40,993 nucleotides of DNA from Verrucomicrobiota bacterium (GTDB lineage Bacteria > Verrucomicrobiota > Verrucomicrobiia > Opitutales > UBA2995), in contig JAQBYJ010000049.1 in assembly GCA_027622555.1 (NCBI GenBank), positions 1-40,993 on the forward strand, given 5' to 3'. The notes under the pieces are model-generated. The model did no database searches. It was not told the DNA's origin and saw only the letters and a program-made list of their open reading frames with translations. Positions 6,008 through 20,423 of the stretch are shown in pieces; position 1 is the stretch's first letter; each line of letters starts with the position of its first letter. A program made the position numbers and the translations under genes.

Positions 6008-8182
6008 ATGAAGCAAAAACATTCAGTTACAGTCGACGGACTAGGAATCACAATTTCCACCGGCGATATAGCAAAACAGTCAAGCGGTGCCGTCACCGTT
6101 AGTCTTGGGGAAACTACCCTATTCGTATCCGCAACCGTGGCCGAGGAGCTGCGCCCGGACCAAAATTGGTTTCCGCTCACCGTAGATTATCGCGAAAAAT
6201 ACTCAGCCGCAGGTCGTTTTCCTGGTGGCTACTTCAAACGCGAAGGTCGACCAAGCGAGAAGGAAATATTAACCTCCCGCTTATGCGATCGACCACTCCG
6301 TCCGTTGTTTCCAAAAGGCTTTTTGAATGAGATCCAAGTTATTGGCATCTTGCTCTCTACCGATCTGGTCAACGATGCCGATATCCTCATGGTTAACGGT
6401 GCTTCCGCCGCGATCTTGATTTCTGACATTCCCTGGAATGGCCCAGTAGGTTGTATTCGTTTGGCCCAAATTGATGGTGAGTTTGTCGTCAATCCGACCA
6501 ATGAACAACAGTGTGACTCGGATCTCGACCTCATTTATGTAGGAACGGAAACCGAAATGCTTATGATCGAAGGTTCTGCCGATCAGATTCCAGAAGCTCG
6601 TTTCATTGAAGCACTGGAGTATTCACAAAAAGCTATCCAACCGATCATCGCTTCTCAAAGAGAATTGGCGAAGTTAGCCGGCAAAGAAAAACGTGAATTT
6701 GCTCTTTATAATGTAACAGACGAAAACTTGAAGATCGTGCGCGATCTTATCGGTGACCGCCTGAAAGCGGCCGTCTACACCTCCAAAAAGACGGAGCGTC
6801 GCGCAGCGGTTAAGGCTTTGAAAGAAGAAGCTGAGGCAGCACTGATCGAAGCTAACGCCGAGGGAGAATACGACAAAAACCAACTGAGTATTGCCATGGA
6901 AATCCTGCAAGAAGAAGTCTACCGAAGCGGTATTCTTGCGGATAAGACACGCGCTGACGGACGAGCTCCTTTGGACCTTCGCAAAATCACTTGTGACGTA
7001 GACATACTTCCAACGGTACACGGTTCTGCCATGTTTTCACGGGGTGAAACACAAACGCTTGGATTACTAACCTTGGGCGGAATGAGCGATGCTCAATCAC
7101 TGGATGCCATTACTGGAGGAAGCAAAGAAAAGTCATTCATACTTCATTACAATTTCCCTCCCTATTCGGTCGGTGAAACAGGGCGCTTTGGCATTCCTGG
7201 TCGCCGTGAAATTGGGCATGGAGCATTGGCAGAACGTTCCCTTCTACCCGTAATTCCTGCGGAAGAAGAGTTCCCCTACTCTGTCCGAATCGTTTCTGAA
7301 ATCATGGAATCCAACGGTTCCACCTCGATGGCTTCTGTTTGTGCAGGTTGTTTGGCCCTTATGGACGCAGGCGTTCCGATCATTGCTCCTGTCGCAGGCA
7401 TTTCAACCGGACTTGTAACAGAAAAAAATGAAGCCGGTGAATACACGAAGAAGATCGTACTGGTCGACATCATAGGTGACGAAGACCATTTCGGAGACAT
7501 GGATTTTAAGATCTGTGGCACTCGTGAAGGTATTACGGGCTTCCAGCTCGACTTGAAAATTAATGGTCTACCACACGACACCATGGTTGAGGCGGTAAAA
7601 GAGTCTTTCGATGCTCGTATGAAGATTCTGGACGCCATGGCGGAAGCCATGCCCCAGGCCCGGGCTGAAGTGAAAGAAAATGCACCTCGCATCCAGACCA
7701 TTCAAATCGATCCTGAAAAGATCGGTCTCCTCATCGGACCTGGCGGAAAGAACATTCGCAGGATGACTGAGGTATCTGGAGCAAATATTGAAATCGATAG
7801 CGACAACAGCGGAAAGGTCTACATTTACAGTAACAACAAACAATCGCTTGAAATTGCGTTTAACGAAATCAAGATGCTTACGGCTGAGATTGAGGTTGGC
7901 GCGATTTACCGGGGAACTGTTAAATCTGTAAAAGATTTCGGCGTATTCGTTGAAGCGCTTCCAGGAAAGGAAGGTCTGGTTCACATTTCTGAACTGGCCG
8001 ACTTCCGCGTTAACAAAACAGAAGATGTTGCCAAATTGGGCGACGAAATCTGGGTGAAATGCATAGGTATCGACGACAAAGGTCGCGTAAAGCTAAGCCG
8101 AAAGGCAGCCATGGCTGAGCGCGAAGCTGCATCAGAAGAACCAGCGGGAGTAGCCGCGGAGGATGAGTCTGAAAACTCATAA
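6008..8182 (+). CDS. pnp: Polyribonucleotide nucleotidyltransferase (PNPase)
   Basis: PNPase is the trimeric, phosphorolytic 3'-5' exoribonuclease of RNA turnover. The domains are in the standard order: a first RNase PH domain from residue 1, a helical linker (about 240-310), a second catalytic RNase PH core from about 325 ([14 protein letters not shown], then [17 protein letters not shown]), the metal-binding acidic block [11 protein letters not shown] near 488-498, a KH domain ([15 protein letters not shown] near 571) and an S1 domain ([17 protein letters not shown] near 630). At 724 aa it is full length. The ATG at 6008 lies 24 bases after the leader hairpin, and a strong terminator follows the gene. 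Confidence 0.97.
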
Positions 8183-8208
8183 CTGAAAGCAATCCATTTA
8201 GGAAAAAA

Positions 8209-8236
8209 AGCCCGCTATTTTAGCGGGCTTTTTTTA
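8209..8236. terminator. Strong intrinsic terminator, probably bidirectional
   Basis: A perfect 9-bp stem, AGCCCGCTA at 8209-8217 and TAGCGGGCT at 8221-8229, encloses a TTT loop. It is followed by a T-run to about 8236 on the plus strand and preceded by an A-run (8203-8209) that acts as a T-run on the minus strand. It ends the rpsO-pnp transcript and may also stop transcripts arriving from the minus-strand gene at 8277-8504. Confidence 0.92.
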
Positions 8237-8276
8237 TTGATCGAGGAGCTAGCAGAAATAGTTCAGATCCAATGCT

Positions 8277-8504
8277 TTAAACTTTCAGTTTCTTGATTTT
8301 GATAAAGCGACAGAGCCGGTCAGATTTTGCCTCTTCAAATATCTGATCAAGTAACTCATCTTTGGAACCGACAAAAAGGGGTAATGGCATTTCAAAGTCG
8401 TCTGAAGGAACGGTTTGGTCTTGTAGCATGGTTCCAGAAAACAAACACACAAAAGATGTGGATAGAATCAGGAAGCGATTGTTAAAAGAAAACGACTTTG
8501 GCAT
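8277..8504 (-). CDS. Small exported hypothetical protein
   Basis: I recognise no family. The 75-residue product has a basic N-terminus and one hydrophobic segment (FLILSTSFVCLFSGTM, about residues 11-26) that looks like a signal peptide or a single membrane anchor. A short acidic middle (DELLDQIFEEAKSD) and a basic tail (IKIKKLKV) follow. AAGGA lies just upstream of the ATG, closer than ideal. It is convergent to pnp with the bidirectional terminator between them, which fits a real transcribed gene, but a short unconserved frame cannot be excluded. Confidence 0.4.
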   Translation of the reverse strand: MPKSFSFNNRFLILSTSFVCLFSGTMLQDQTVPSDDFEMPLPLFVGSKDELLDQIFEEAKSDRLCRFIKIKKLKV

Positions 8505-8679
8505 TTCCTTTTAGAGAAGAGGTAAAACAACAATAATCAATGGATAACGTGCACCTGACCCCCAATTTAGGTATTACCCCTATAGTGTTTATCAGGGTTA
8601 ACGGAAGAATTGGCTGAAATAGATATAAATCATTGCAGTTGAAATCGTGTGAATGTCTTTTACCTACAAAACTTCCTTT

Positions 8680-9453
8680 ATGACAGAACCCACATTTCTA
8701 GTAACTAATGACGATGGAATCCATGTCTATTTCATTCACGCATTGGTGAAAGCACTCTCCAATTATGGTACCACTTATGTTGCTGCCCCGGCAGATGAAC
8801 AGAGTTGGGTCGGGAGGAAAGTATCGCGAACAGGAGAAGTAAAAGTTTGGCCTTATACTGGAATCGAAGGGATAAAAGGCTGGCAAGTAGAAGGTACTCC
8901 CAGTGACGCTATCAATATTGCACTGAGCCACCTACTTCCTGTTAAACCAGATGTGGTCGTGTCGGGTATCAATGTGGGATGGAATGCCATGTTACCCATC
9001 TTGTATAGCTCAGGAACAGTAGCTGGAGCTTTAGAAGGGGCAAGCTGGGGTTTGCCAGGCATCGCTCTATCAATCCATCTGGAGGGAACCGATTTCGATT
9101 TAGTTAAAAACGATTCCGTCAATCCGTCAGAATCGATTAAAAATCGAATCGATATTGCAGCGGAACTTGGAGCGAAATTTGCTTCCGAGAAAGTAGGTGA
9201 AGTTAATAAAAGTAACCTCGTTTATAATGTTAATTTTCCGACTCACCCCAAGCCCGATACACCTTGGATCCTGACGCAACCAGGACACATCAAACTAGGT
9301 GCCTTGTTCCGTGAAACGGAGGCAGGCACTTTCACTTTTCATTATAATGAAGACACTGAAAGAACCTCGCCCAATGGCCTTCCTTCAGATTTCGAAGTGT
9401 TCTCACAGGGTAACATTAGTCTGTCCAAGCTAAACTTTAACAACTTAAGTTAA
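8680..9453 (+). CDS. surE: 5'/3'-nucleotidase SurE-like
   Basis: SurE proteins are metal-dependent phosphatases acting on nucleoside 5'- and 3'-monophosphates. Starting from the ATG at 8680, the N-terminus reads FLVTNDDGI with the metal-binding Asp11-Asp12 pair. A Ser follows near 42 (ADEQSWVG), then the metal Asn in SGINVGWN near 95 and the YSSGTVAGALEG block. The upstream in-frame ATG at 8653 would add nine residues before the family's usual start. The protein (257 aa) is normal in length. The flexible loop reads SWVGRKVS rather than the common GSGxS, so substrate preference may differ. The GT2 gene follows on the same strand after 56 bases. Confidence 0.9.
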   Translation: MTEPTFLVTNDDGIHVYFIHALVKALSNYGTTYVAAPADEQSWVGRKVSRTGEVKVWPYTGIEGIKGWQVEGTPSDAINIALSHLLPVKPDVVVSGINVGWNAMLPILYSSGTVAGALEGASWGLPGIALSIHLEGTDFDLVKNDSVNPSESIKNRIDIAAELGAKFASEKVGEVNKSNLVYNVNFPTHPKPDTPWILTQPGHIKLGALFRETEAGTFTFHYNEDTERTSPNGLPSDFEVFSQGNISLSKLNFNNLS

Positions 9454-9509
9454 AGTTCGATTTTGATCACAGCATGCGATTAGCGTTTTGAAAAATCTAT
9501 TATCTGAGA

Positions 9510-10319
9510 ATGAAAATATCAGTGATTATTACTGCTTACGGAGCACCTCAAGTTTTGAAGCGCGTTTTGACGGGTTACCTGAATCAAAAACAGCAACCAC
9601 ATGAGATAATAATTGCCGAAGATGCTGAAGCATTAAACCTGAAAGAAATAGTTCCATCAAACCTCAAACGAAACCAGAAGTTTGTTCATGTTACTCAACC
9701 GGACTCCGGTTACCGTAGGTCTTTGATTTTAAATAAGGCGATTGTAGCGAGTGAAGGTGACTACCTTATTCTAACAGACTCAGATTGTATTCCTCATAAA
9801 CACTTCGTCAAAGACCATGCCAGCTACGCAAAGCCCAATCAATATCTCCTCGGGGCAAGATCGTATGTGAAAGAAGAAGTGCTTGATGATTTTAACACCA
9901 CATTTTTTGCCCGCCTTTCACAGTCACTTAAAGGAAACCTTTACCCGAAGAAAGTTGCGTTCAGAATACCCTTTGTAAATTGGGACTCCAATACATCCGC
10001 ATTGGGTGCCAACATGTCGTTTTGGAAAAACGACCTGATCGAGGTGAATGGATTTGATAATGAATTCATAGGTTGGGGCCATGAAGATATGGAATTACTG
10101 GACCGACTTAAGATCTCAGGGCTCACCGAAAAGTTTCTTCATCAACAATGTATTCTTTATCACCTGAATCATCCCATTCTTTCGAAGAGCAACGATTTGA
10201 TCAATACAGAGCGATGGAATGAATCGAAAGCTCAAGGACTCAAAAGGTCAAAAAATGGATTGGATCAGTTTTTATCCAGTGAAAAAGATTCACTTATTCA
10301 CCAGACCTTTGTGCATTGA
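9510..10319 (+). CDS. Family 2 glycosyltransferase with galactosyltransferase-type C-terminal block
   Basis: The start MKISVIITAYGAP is the GT-A nucleotide-binding strand of GT2 enzymes. The DxD-type metal motif appears as LTDSDCIP near residue 88. GWGHEDMELLDRL near 188 is the acceptor/catalytic block of the Glyco_transf_7C (galactosyltransferase-like) region, followed by LYHLNHP. The protein is soluble, 269 aa, with no membrane segment, and probably acts at the cytoplasmic face on a lipid- or polysaccharide-linked acceptor. No other polysaccharide genes adjoin it, so the acceptor and sugar cannot be told. Confidence 0.87.
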   Translation: MKISVIITAYGAPQVLKRVLTGYLNQKQQPHEIIIAEDAEALNLKEIVPSNLKRNQKFVHVTQPDSGYRRSLILNKAIVASEGDYLILTDSDCIPHKHFVKDHASYAKPNQYLLGARSYVKEEVLDDFNTTFFARLSQSLKGNLYPKKVAFRIPFVNWDSNTSALGANMSFWKNDLIEVNGFDNEFIGWGHEDMELLDRLKISGLTEKFLHQQCILYHLNHPILSKSNDLINTERWNESKAQGLKRSKNGLDQFLSSEKDSLIHQTFVH

Positions 10320-17048: not shown

Positions 17049-17459
17049 CTAGGGGGAACTCGAGTTCCGAAGATAATTAAATCGATTAAAGTTCTTAAGT
17101 GCCAATGGGCTTCGAATACGCTCAAAATCTTTACTTTTTTCATACAGTTTCACCGCATTTCCGGGTTGCCACTCCTTAAATTCGAAAAAAGTTTGTTCGC
17201 GCGATGGATATCGAACGGGGAAGGACACGAGATTAAAGTCTTGAGATTGATTCGCCGGATTCAAAATGGTTTTTACTGGATTTATCCAAGATCGGTAAAG
17301 CCCGGAAGCTGGTGTAGCAGGAATGGTATTTAGATTATTAACTGTTTTATCAATCACCAGTTTCTGTTCCTGATAAAGCTTCGGACTTCCCGGATCAACC
17401 GGCTCGATACCAACTAATGGTATTGAAATCAGTAGTAATCCTATCAGTAGCAATTTCAT
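17049..17459 (-). CDS. Small secreted hypothetical protein
   Basis: I recognise no family. The 136-residue product begins with a short signal peptide (MKLLLIGLLLISIPLVG) and has a polar, basic mature part with aromatic residues (FFEFKEWQPGNAVKLYEKS). It starts seven bases after the stop of the ThyX-like gene, so the two probably share a transcript, although nothing suggests a common function. The tight spacing and good signal peptide support a real gene. Confidence 0.62.
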   Translation of the reverse strand: MKLLLIGLLLISIPLVGIEPVDPGSPKLYQEQKLVIDKTVNNLNTIPATPASGLYRSWINPVKTILNPANQSQDFNLVSFPVRYPSREQTFFEFKEWQPGNAVKLYEKSKDFERIRSPLALKNFNRFNYLRNSSSP

Positions 17460-17466
17460 GAATACT

Positions 17467-18813
17467 CTATTCAGGCTCAGCAGTGCCCTCCGTAATAAAC
17501 GGTTTGGATTCGGGAACCAATTCCCAAAACTTATGCAGCGCCTTGCTTAGGTGTTCAGCATAACGAAAGTGCGCACCCATTCCTGTTCTGAGTTCGGCTT
17601 CGTAGACAAATTTATCAGCATGAGTGCTATGCTCGAAAGGCGTCTGAGACCCCAAGAGAAGACCGTAAACATAAGCGGGTGATTTTAATTCCATCAATGT
17701 TTTCAATAACGCTTTTTGACGAATCAACAGTTCCTGATGCGGAGCAGGATCAACTTCAGGCGGTAAATAGAAACCATTTTGTATCATGGGTGTAAATCGA
17801 TGACCGGTCCGGTGACGGTTCAAATCACGTAACTCGGCGATCGCCATGTTATTCCAGGCAAATGAAACGCGCATGCGGCGAATCGAATAACCACATCGAC
17901 CGTAACGATTCGCCCGGTGCCCCAGAGCGTCTTTCATCGACTGGGTATCGGGGAGAAAGTCAGGAACCTCGTTATCAACTTTCACCCAAACTTCGTCAGC
18001 AAGATTGTCTGTCGAAAGCGTTTCCAATCCCAACTTCAAACTGTAATCAAATTCCTGGCGAGCTTGAGCCTCATAAGAATATTCCGACTTACTATGTTTC
18101 ACCAACCTTGGAGAAAATTTAGTTAACTCCTCCCGGATGGCATTAGCGCAAGCGTGGGCTTCGATTTGAGGCAGCGATTCGAGGTGCTTGATTGCTTCAG
18201 TCCACATTCTTGAACTCATAACCAGAGCCATACTCGTCTTGCAAGCAAAGGGCATAAAGTAGCGAGCTCGATCGAGAGCGTAGTTCTTGCGAATTCGTTT
18301 TATTACAAGCGGATTCGCATTTTCCGGATAACGGATTAACTCGGGATTCTCAGTCGCCAATACATCCAAGCGATCGTACTCGGCCTGATAAGCCCGGAAG
18401 CTTTCGAGCATGATTGATTTCCATTCACCAGCCAGGCCTGCTGGAACACCCACATCTTCAGGCTCCAGTAGGCTGCTCTCGTCCATGCTGATGTACCGCG
18501 TGCTGGATTCCTGCCCATCACCCATCTGAGCGATTTCAAATAATTTATAAGCCAACCACATGGACACGTCATCGATCGCCATAGCGATTCCACCAGTCAG
18601 GCCCGCAATAGAAGCGTGACCATAATCAACGAACTTCAAAATACGGTCGATCGATGCATCCGCTTCATTAAGATCAACCTTTTCAAGGATTTTTTCCAAA
18701 CCAATATTTGACCTCGAATAACGCGCCAATACGGAGGCAAGTAGCTCTGGTGTTAACTTGGGATTGTCTTTGGCGGCGTCGGGGGAGACCAGTGCGATTC
18801 CGGTTACATTCAT
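17467..18813 (-). CDS. Double-length ThyX-like (flavin-dependent thymidylate synthase family) protein
   Basis: ThyX converts dUMP to dTMP using FAD and methylene-tetrahydrofolate. This 448-residue protein holds two ThyX-like halves. In the first (about 1-235) DYGHASIAG is followed by the substrate-site block QESSTRY (101-107), but the place of the RHR triad reads IAQ (94-96); the closing helix region is ARYFMPFACKTSMALVMSSR. In the second (about 240-448) the triad is present (RHRTGHR, 333-339) but the S-x-R-Y part reads PMIQNGFY. One half thus keeps the nucleotide-binding motif and the other the flavin-binding motif. Chlamydial ThyX proteins are also about twice the usual length, so this may be the PVC form of the enzyme. 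Activity is inferred. The start at 18813 gives the natural N-terminus. Confidence 0.75.
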   Translation of the reverse strand: MNVTGIALVSPDAAKDNPKLTPELLASVLARYSRSNIGLEKILEKVDLNEADASIDRILKFVDYGHASIAGLTGGIAMAIDDVSMWLAYKLFEIAQMGDGQESSTRYISMDESSLLEPEDVGVPAGLAGEWKSIMLESFRAYQAEYDRLDVLATENPELIRYPENANPLVIKRIRKNYALDRARYFMPFACKTSMALVMSSRMWTEAIKHLESLPQIEAHACANAIREELTKFSPRLVKHSKSEYSYEAQARQEFDYSLKLGLETLSTDNLADEVWVKVDNEVPDFLPDTQSMKDALGHRANRYGRCGYSIRRMRVSFAWNNMAIAELRDLNRHRTGHRFTPMIQNGFYLPPEVDPAPHQELLIRQKALLKTLMELKSPAYVYGLLLGSQTPFEHSTHADKFVYEAELRTGMGAHFRYAEHLSKALHKFWELVPESKPFITEGTAEPE

Positions 18814-18905: not shown

Positions 18906-20423
18906 TCAACCACCGATTAAGGAGCTGAGTGGACCTTGGTAAAATCCAAGCAACAGGGTTAGTAGTGCGAGCCCACCCAAAGTCAATTTGGCAAGATTGG
19001 AAACATCCGGCCAATCGCGAAGAGCTTCAGCTTCCTCGCCATCCAAAACGGGTAGTTTCCAAAACCGGAAGGTCGCTTCCTTAATCCAACCAAAATAATA
19101 ATAGATCGAAATTACCACACCAACAATTGCCACTCCAAGTAAACTGTACAATCCAGCTTGGAAGGCTGCGTAGAATAGGAGCAGTTTCCCAATGAATCCC
19201 GCGAGCGGAGGAATACCAGCCAGAGAACCCAGCCCGAGCACCAGTACGCCTGAAAGAAAAGGTCTTTCTTCCAACAGGTCCTGGTAGTCACTAAGCTGTT
19301 GAATGTCATCTTTTCCTTTACTTGAAAGATGAGCCATTACTCCAAATACCGCGTAGGAGGCCAACAGGTAGGTGATAAGGTAAAACACCACAGCATTTTG
19401 AGCTGCCGGAATCGTGAACATTGCGACAATTCCCATCAGCAAGTACCCCGCATGCGAAACTCCCGATAAACCGATGAGTCGCTTCACGTTTCTCTGGGTC
19501 AACGCGGCGATATTTCCAAAAAGTATGGTGGCGATAGCCATGACGCTAAGCACAGGAACCAATAACTGAGCCATCGGCTTGAACGGTCCGGTAACCAAAA
19601 CGATAAGGATGGCAAATCCTCCGGCTTTCGAAGTAACGGCCAAGGCCGCAGTTACGGGGGTGGGTGCGCCTTGATAAACATCGGGAATCCAAATCTGAAA
19701 CGGCACGGATCCAATTTTGAATGCGATACCGGCAAAAACCATAAGCACTCCGGTCTTCACAATTAGATTGTCACTATTGAGTCCAAGAAACAATTGGAGG
19801 TCAGAAAACTTCAAAGCTTCTCCAGACATTCCAGCCAATCCCGGAGTACTGGCGATGCCATAAATCAGCACAATACCCATAAGGAGTATCGCGGTGCTGA
19901 ATCCACCCATAATCAAATACTTCAAGCCCGCTTCCAAACTATTGGAGCGATCGCGATTATAACTCACCAAAACATAGAAACCGATCGTCACAGTTTCCAA
20001 CGCAACAAACAGCATGACGAAATGATTACTCTGAGCCAACAGCATGATCGCGGAGGTCACCAATAGCAGGATGGCGTAAAACTCCGTTCCAGGAAGCCCG
20101 TGCTTTCTCAGAAAAATAGATCCGAGAAATGAGGTGAGAATCGAACTGGTTAAAAAGAACAGCCGCATCACCTGGCCAAATTCCGAGTGATAGAGCATTC
20201 CGGAAAATGTTTCCTGATTGAGGATTCCCAGATTGTCACTCAACACCGTCAATCCCAAGCCTAACAATACAAGCTGACCAACAACCGCAACTTTGCCGAC
20301 CAGGTCTTTTCCTTTTTCGCCGCCGAACATATCGATCAACAAAAGAGATAAAGCCAGTACCACTAAAATAATCTCCGGGAGAATAGCACTCCACGTATTA
20401 GTATCTATATAATCTCCAGTCAT
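18906..20423 (-). CDS. nuoN: NADH-quinone oxidoreductase subunit N
   Basis: This is an antiporter-like proton-pumping subunit of the complex I membrane arm. It has about 14 hydrophobic segments. The family features include the Lys-bearing FAGIAFKIGSVPFQIWIPDVYQGAPTPV region (written here in two parts: FAGIAFKIGSVPF and QIWIPDVYQGAPTPV), RLIGLSGVSHAGYLLMG and SLAGIPPLAGFIGKLLLF. At 505 aa it is full length. It is the last gene of the nuo run, seven bases after nuoM, and is followed after 92 bases by the thyX-like gene on the same strand. Confidence 0.96.
   Translation of the reverse strand: MTGDYIDTNTWSAILPEIILVVLALSLLLIDMFGGEKGKDLVGKVAVVGQLVLLGLGLTVLSDNLGILNQETFSGMLYHSEFGQVMRLFFLTSSILTSFLGSIFLRKHGLPGTEFYAILLLVTSAIMLLAQSNHFVMLFVALETVTIGFYVLVSYNRDRSNSLEAGLKYLIMGGFSTAILLMGIVLIYGIASTPGLAGMSGEALKFSDLQLFLGLNSDNLIVKTGVLMVFAGIAFKIGSVPFQIWIPDVYQGAPTPVTAALAVTSKAGGFAILIVLVTGPFKPMAQLLVPVLSVMAIATILFGNIAALTQRNVKRLIGLSGVSHAGYLLMGIVAMFTIPAAQNAVVFYLITYLLASYAVFGVMAHLSSKGKDDIQQLSDYQDLLEERPFLSGVLVLGLGSLAGIPPLAGFIGKLLLFYAAFQAGLYSLLGVAIVGVVISIYYYFGWIKEATFRFWKLPVLDGEEAEALRDWPDVSNLAKLTLGGLALLTLLLGFYQGPLSSLIGG

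Follow-up and report, generated by a model that had tools for sequence, protein, structure and literature searches.

The window, a stretch of 40,993 nucleotides from a Verrucomicrobiota genome, holds on its minus strand an open reading frame with an ATG start whose product we call tandem ThyX, with a nuoN-like gene upstream that is adjoined by further complex I genes. The genes and domains are placed as follows.

17467..18813, minus strand: tandem ThyX gene, 448 aa (ORF, Pfam and AlphaFold2 model)
18906..20423, minus strand: nuoN-like gene (Proton_antipo_M), a conserved neighbour lying 92 bases upstream of thyX
18070..18813, minus strand: half 1 of ThyX, about residues 1-248 (VIA-align Z 12.5 and hhalign)
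18007..18069, minus strand: linker, about residues 249-269, roughly between the two fold-matched ranges
17470..18006, minus strand: half 2 of ThyX, about residues 270-448 (VIA-align Z 12.8 and a weak profile)

Relatives of the protein were taken as the best 80 of 312 confirmed, and by title these were mostly Opitutia, Opitutales or Opitutaceae, with others named only as Verrucomicrobia and one as Akkermansia; the closest among them were from Opitutales (90%, 85% and 77% identity). The nuoN-thyX neighbourhood is conserved among the loci fetched from genome_contigs, as the window nuoN was matched in 52 of 80, several of the loci being too short to hold nuoN, and in none of the four viral loci covered by the same search. 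Immediately 3' of thyX lies an ORF of 136 aa (17049-17459, minus strand) that had no Pfam match and was matched by tblastn in only five of the 80 loci. No match to tandem ThyX was found in the plasmid collection.

ThyX, its fold and its three-subunit active site are well known. Thy1 (PF02511) was the sole Pfam family matched by the window protein, over residues 22-235 (52.8 bits, cut-off 24.8) and with no match in half 2, a region that the Thy1 match reached below cut-off in two relatives (G136, 22.4 bits; G186, 20.8 bits). The NCBIfam thyX equivalog (TIGR02170) scored 31.2 bits, short of its cut-off of 87.9. We also compared each half with canonical ThyX using hhalign, which gave prob 97 (E 9.4e-11) for half 1 and prob 15 (E 0.0018) for half 2, the latter with the register right at RHR and at the Arg in the R174 place. 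By sequence profile half 1 is clearly ThyX, whereas half 2 is not secure on profile evidence alone. A PDB search with the single window protein as query returned no ThyX, and an 18-row profile matched ThyX chains, M. tuberculosis (Mtb) ThyX best, in half 1 only.

The predicted structure covered both halves. The AlphaFold2 model, built from an alignment of 44 sequences, had a pLDDT of 92.9 and a pTM of 0.89; its residues 1-255 matched Mtb ThyX (3gwc_D; VIA-align Z 12.5, rmsd 4.5, 212 aligned) and residues 271-445 matched T. maritima (Tm) ThyX (4gtf; Z 12.8, rmsd 2.6, 164 aligned), with the best unrelated structure at Z 2.9. A model of a viral relative only 24% identical (L153, pLDDT 84.3) likewise showed two ThyX matches, at residues 4-221 (Z 11.6) and 237-412 (Z 10.5), with the best unrelated structure at Z 4.1. 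Because hhalign between the two halves failed, the halves not finding each other, the case for their homology is made by the fold and by the separate link of each half to ThyX. The preliminary description had read the protein as two ThyX-like halves, with the fold of both set beforehand as a point on which this reading could fall, and both halves do adopt the ThyX fold in the predicted model. Computation thus shows a chain of two ThyX folds, and so not a single-domain ThyX.

We then located the places of known active-site residues along the chain, with counts of aligned rows in brackets.

18610..18621, minus strand: GHAS, residues 65-68, His66 at the Tm H53 place and Ser68 at the Mtb Ser71 place (159/159)
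18526..18534, minus strand: IAQ, residues 94-96, replacing RHR in half 1 (Arg at 93-96 in 0/159)
18493..18513, minus strand: QESSTRY, residues 101-107, half 1, at the Tm E86/S88/R90/Y91 places (Q, E, S104, T, R and Y each 159/159)
18262..18264, minus strand: Arg184, half 1, at the Tm R147 / Mtb R172 place (158/159)
18208..18210, minus strand: Arg202, half 1, at the Mtb R190 place (154/159)
17809..17817, minus strand: RHR, residues 333-335, half 2 (157/157 rows reaching RHR)
17587..17589, minus strand: Arg409, half 2, at the Tm R174 / Mtb R199 place (157/157; register by hhalign)

The 159 aligned rows correspond to 139 distinct cores, some genes entering twice from two collections, and exclude L001 and L002, which are the window's own gene again. 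A non-redundant set of 44 rows (<80% identity) was drawn from Verrucomicrobiota and viral contigs, leaving out L064 and all loci below L050. The half-1 alignment has 29 rows, compared to 31 in another, since the insert-bearing L144 and L149 were left out. The register of GHAS was taken from the 18-row profile search of the PDB.

We found that H66, S68, E102, S104, R106 and Y107 were present in all 159 rows and R333, H334, R335 and R409 in 157 of 157, the remaining two rows ending earlier; these ten residues were invariant in the non-redundant set (44/44), in which R184 was kept in 43 rows and R202 in 40. The preliminary description had held that half 1 keeps QESSTRY with IAQ in place of RHR, and that half 2 keeps RHRTGHR (residues 333-339) with no S-x-R-Y downstream of it, and the sequences bore out both statements. 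A one-residue insert in half 1 in the hhalign register places R-H-R on residues 93, 95 and 96 (E, A and Q), and RHR is absent from half 1 in this register as well as in the one read by eye (94-96). None of the 159 rows carries Arg at residues 93-96, nor at residue 211, where half 1 has its R174 place. In half 2 the S88 place is mostly occupied by Leu, Phe, Met or Cys and the R90 place mostly by Gln or Pro. Thus the canonical RHR-x7-S-x-R-Y occurs in neither half of any of the 159 rows and is divided between the halves in 157 of 157. As frames were read stop to stop, four rows carry an RHR ahead of the aligned start, 176-258 residues upstream of QESSTRY. Beyond what had been described before, R409 accompanies RHR in half 2, and the half with S-x-R-Y also retains H66, S68 and R184. 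Arg87 of Mtb ThyX, a dUMP contact, is replaced by Met85 and so lost. Judged from these alignments, the conservation of the split residue set is beyond chance, and computation shows both the complementary losses in the two halves and their conservation.

These losses follow the subunit source of each residue in solved ThyX. For the Mtb enzyme PMC6514825 presents a homotetramer in which three subunits build each site: subunit A gives RHR 95-97, which holds FAD, and Arg199, which touches dUMP, subunit B gives Ser71 and Arg190 to the FAD phosphates, and subunit C gives the Gln103 backbone, Arg87, Ser105, Arg107 and the Tyr108 lid. In PMC3498832 a dUMP-pocket inhibitor contacts monomer A at Gln75 and Arg182 and monomer B at Ser88, and PMC4632503 names the site residues A:Arg197, C:Arg109 and C:Tyr110. 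In tandem ThyX all role-A residues fall in half 2 and all kept role-B or role-C residues in half 1. The earlier suggestion that the motif is shared across the halves thus gains support from conservation together with the subunit source of each residue (PMC6514825, PMC3498832). The division of roles A and C between the halves is solid. The assignment of role B to half 1 is thin, because only S68 and R202 carry it and R202 fails in 4 of 44 rows; in one type of canonical ThyX the Arg190 place is taken by His or Lys, and half 2 was assessed at its Ser71 place by eye.

We propose that a ThyX gene underwent duplication and fusion and that the halves then shed the active-site residues each no longer needed. 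Half 2 would play role A alone, holding FAD through RHR and touching dUMP with R409, and half 1 would play roles B and C, providing the dUMP side and the FAD phosphate clamp. Two chains would pair as a pseudo-tetramer in which each kind of half occurs twice. Two of its sites would be live, each drawing on both first halves and a single second half and binding one FAD and one dUMP, and the other two positions would be dead. Should half 2 have lost role B, no two second halves could be A-B neighbours, and they would stand at diagonal places with first halves between. Neither half should then work without the other. That the protein is the organism's thymidylate synthase, made by duplication, fusion and reciprocal loss and acting as a chain dimer with two live sites, is in our assessment probable, and activity, chain dimer, placing of the halves and FAD count are all predictions from this arrangement.

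A simpler assembly would have the live site wholly within one chain, the halves forming a self-contained pseudo-dimer with one complete pocket and no second chain. One chain does carry both complementary residue sets, the model has high confidence along the entire chain, and the thin role-B evidence leaves the need for a second first half less firm. We nevertheless consider this unlikely, given that three subunits form each site in solved ThyX (PMC6514825) and that the role-B residues S68 and, in most rows, R202 share half 1 with the role-C residues, as a single copy of half 1 cannot occupy two places.

The genomic distribution was assessed for the proposed chain-dimer synthase and for ThyA. 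A check for a separate thyA or thyX in the organism's own genome (95.8% complete) found neither: the one Thy1 match was the tandem ThyX gene itself, and PF00303 (ThyA) was without a match. By sequence content, tandem ThyX is the only thymidylate synthase candidate of this genome. The genome also has thymidine kinase and DHFR; because of the kinase, thymidine salvage is possible and the essentiality of tandem thyX unproved.

Among 53 relatives, double ThyX was present in 12 genomes and a PF00303 match in 39, with a single overlap (G019, where the PF00303 match was partial, at 39 bits); 38 had ThyA and no double, and three had neither, one of them 64% complete and two of 0.8-0.9 Mb. G031 and G048, of 0.8-0.9 Mb and each given as at least 90% complete, have no double ThyX and no PF00303 match, and in both a DHFR match lies inside a frame of 365-376 aa. 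In the related family f13, 52 of 61 genomes had double ThyX, six had full-length ThyA and none had both (Fisher p 1.5e-6, with genomes counted as independent despite their relatedness), the three genomes with neither being 80-84% complete. Partial PF00303 matches of 33.7-65.5 bits, above the Pfam cut-off of 24.3, occurred in five of the 52 double-ThyX genomes of f13. Double-ThyX genomes with such partial matches are G019, G147, G426, G450 and G464, and the matches are perhaps to a distant ThyA-fold protein with another role. A replacement pattern between double ThyX and ThyA is thus established computationally. DHFR was missing from 5 of 12 double-ThyX genomes compared to 3 of 38 ThyA genomes, a weak signal. 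Across Verrucomicrobiota, PF02511 was matched in 204 of 387 genomes, doubles included, and a single ordinary ThyX is common elsewhere in the phylum.

Versions of the gene also occur in viruses. A scan of viral contigs, 'viral' being the label of the collection, gave 31 loci on contigs of up to 479 kb, some of them near-copies of one another, and in every one half 1 had QExSxRY and half 2 had RHR. Two of the viral proteins (L144:5001-6551 and L149:4504-6192) have extra residues after family-profile position ~58-67. Distant versions whose half 1 has QE[R/S]STRY and whose half 2 has RHR were found in the phages Ma-LMM01, Mvi-JY20 and Tunturi_5, where they are annotated as thymidylate synthase or, in Mvi-JY20, as hypothetical.

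Some viral neighbours of tandem thyX make dUMP: a dUTPase overlaps its start in locus L130, and a dCMP deaminase precedes it in phage Tunturi_5. We surveyed 55 viral neighbour proteins, 54 hand-picked from 80 mechanical picks plus the L130 dUTPase; these gave 27 Pfam families, of which the 25 listed included one dUTPase, one dCTP deaminase-like protein (perhaps the same protein as the dUTPase), one PTPS and one ribonucleotide reductase insertion domain. Because the survey gave little else of the pathway, the dUMP link rests on few loci. The L130 locus also encodes, at 7638-10043, an 801-aa RtcB-like protein that matches an HNH endonuclease profile as well (E 6.6e-5) and could be an intein.

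The predicted FAD-dependent methylation of dUMP by tandem ThyX has some support from the alternation with ThyA and from the few neighbours. The protein could instead be a decayed ThyX paralogue with another role, whether structural, regulatory or as another uracil methylase, as its fold matches include, by entry title, ThyX-fold proteins with other tasks: the UMP/dUMP methylase PolB and a ThyX of C. glutamicum that is dispensable for thymidylate. Such decay is very improbable in light of the invariance of ten catalytic-site residues over 44 non-redundant rows, a genome with no other Thy1 and no ThyA, alternation with full-length ThyA across 61 genomes, and the dUTPase or dCMP deaminase beside the gene in two viral records.

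We also assessed the relationships between bacterial and viral carriers of the putative synthase. In a tree of whole proteins (45 chosen rows), the Opitutales rows formed one group (99/100), and the verrucomicrobial L042 grouped with the viral L147 and L149 (96/94). The starred branches of this tree, in which long branches meet, force a minimum of two switches of carrier between bacteria and viruses. In a tree of halves (36 chosen rows), first halves from Opitutales and phages grouped together (92/90), as did second halves (99/94), a grouping that would be expected from one old duplication. We tentatively extend the chain-dimer reading to a history to which we give somewhat less than even weight: ThyX would have been asymmetrised from a homotetramer to a dimer of two-role chains with one FAD each and two live and two dead sites, would have had a phage-borne origin and spread in large phages, would have been captured at least twice by Verrucomicrobiota, and would have displaced ThyA in Opitutales as the only thymidylate synthase.

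A second tandem ThyX was found in the verrucomicrobial genome G055 (L205:1215-2810, minus strand). Its half 1 has HNH with SEQVSQRY and its half 2 has RHR with RMR, the same kind of complementary losses as in the window protein; unlike the latter, both of its halves exceed the Thy1 cut-off (124.8 and 73.3 bits). Used as a query at E 1e-12, it was found in 1 of 387 genomes, and a viral search with the same query gave no relative. The two G055 halves were not securely joined to the Opitutales and phage halves in the tree, which, with their higher Thy1 scores, favors independent duplications, an Opitutales/phage type and a G055 type, with losses in the same direction. A split that arose more than once would be compatible with the duplicated, reciprocally decayed synthase that we favor, and is possible, if on balance doubtful: the branches are long, a single duplication remains compatible with the tree, and, as read from the alignment by eye, the two types agree in their order of roles and in having Asp at the half-2 Arg190 place.

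Other ThyX forms were also observed. Weak Thy1 matches in family f55 were considered as separate halves and rejected, as they resemble a permuted ThyX relative: ORFs of 251-323 aa (L195-L199) match canonical ThyX in swapped order, with the later profile stretch before the early one, which suggests from sequence order a circularly permuted relative with THR for RHR. Genome G157 encodes a single ThyX-like protein (L191) in which RHE replaces the expected RHR and QQSSRY comes after it.

Compared to ThyX/FDTS (PF02511, TIGR02170; T. maritima TM0449 and M. tuberculosis ThyX), tandem ThyX is alike in the fold of each half and in having most active-site residues within the whole chain, with both motif parts in register; it differs in its two copies per chain, the never contiguous RHR-x7-S-x-R-Y, the half-specific losses, the loss of Mtb Arg87 and the score below the NCBIfam equivalog cut-off. 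Among the closest known proteins are the thymidylate synthases of Microcystis phage Ma-LMM01 (YP_851034.1, PHROG 36506) and of phage Tunturi_5 (XOB77493.1), which are likewise of double length, half 1 having QERSTRY and half 2 having RHR and LR[S/T], and are only 23-28% identical to the window protein (tblastn, 47-80% of the query); their annotation as thymidylate synthase leaves the two halves unmentioned. The PHROG 36506 profile matched the window protein at 60.7 bits, covering residues 24-213 only. Chlamydial ThyX is also roughly double length. Of six Chlamydiae genomes in PMC5954106, all are listed with ThyX and none with ThyA. Among the best-ranked matches in the openly licensed PMC literature, none described a tandem ThyX or a split motif, so the split tandem variant appears new, though the literature on chlamydial ThyX may already describe such a form.

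Because each ThyX site is assembled from three identical subunits, the role of each subunit is hard to assign by mutation, and the tandem variant separates the roles onto two halves, such that each can be mutated alone. The divided motif also provides an annotation rule for Opitutales and phage genes that current models score only partly, as NCBIfam misses the window protein and Pfam sees one half. If the proposed chain dimer is true, it would show how a symmetric enzyme turns into an obligate partnership through reciprocal loss after fusion, and it bears on the exchange of essential genes between hosts and large phages.
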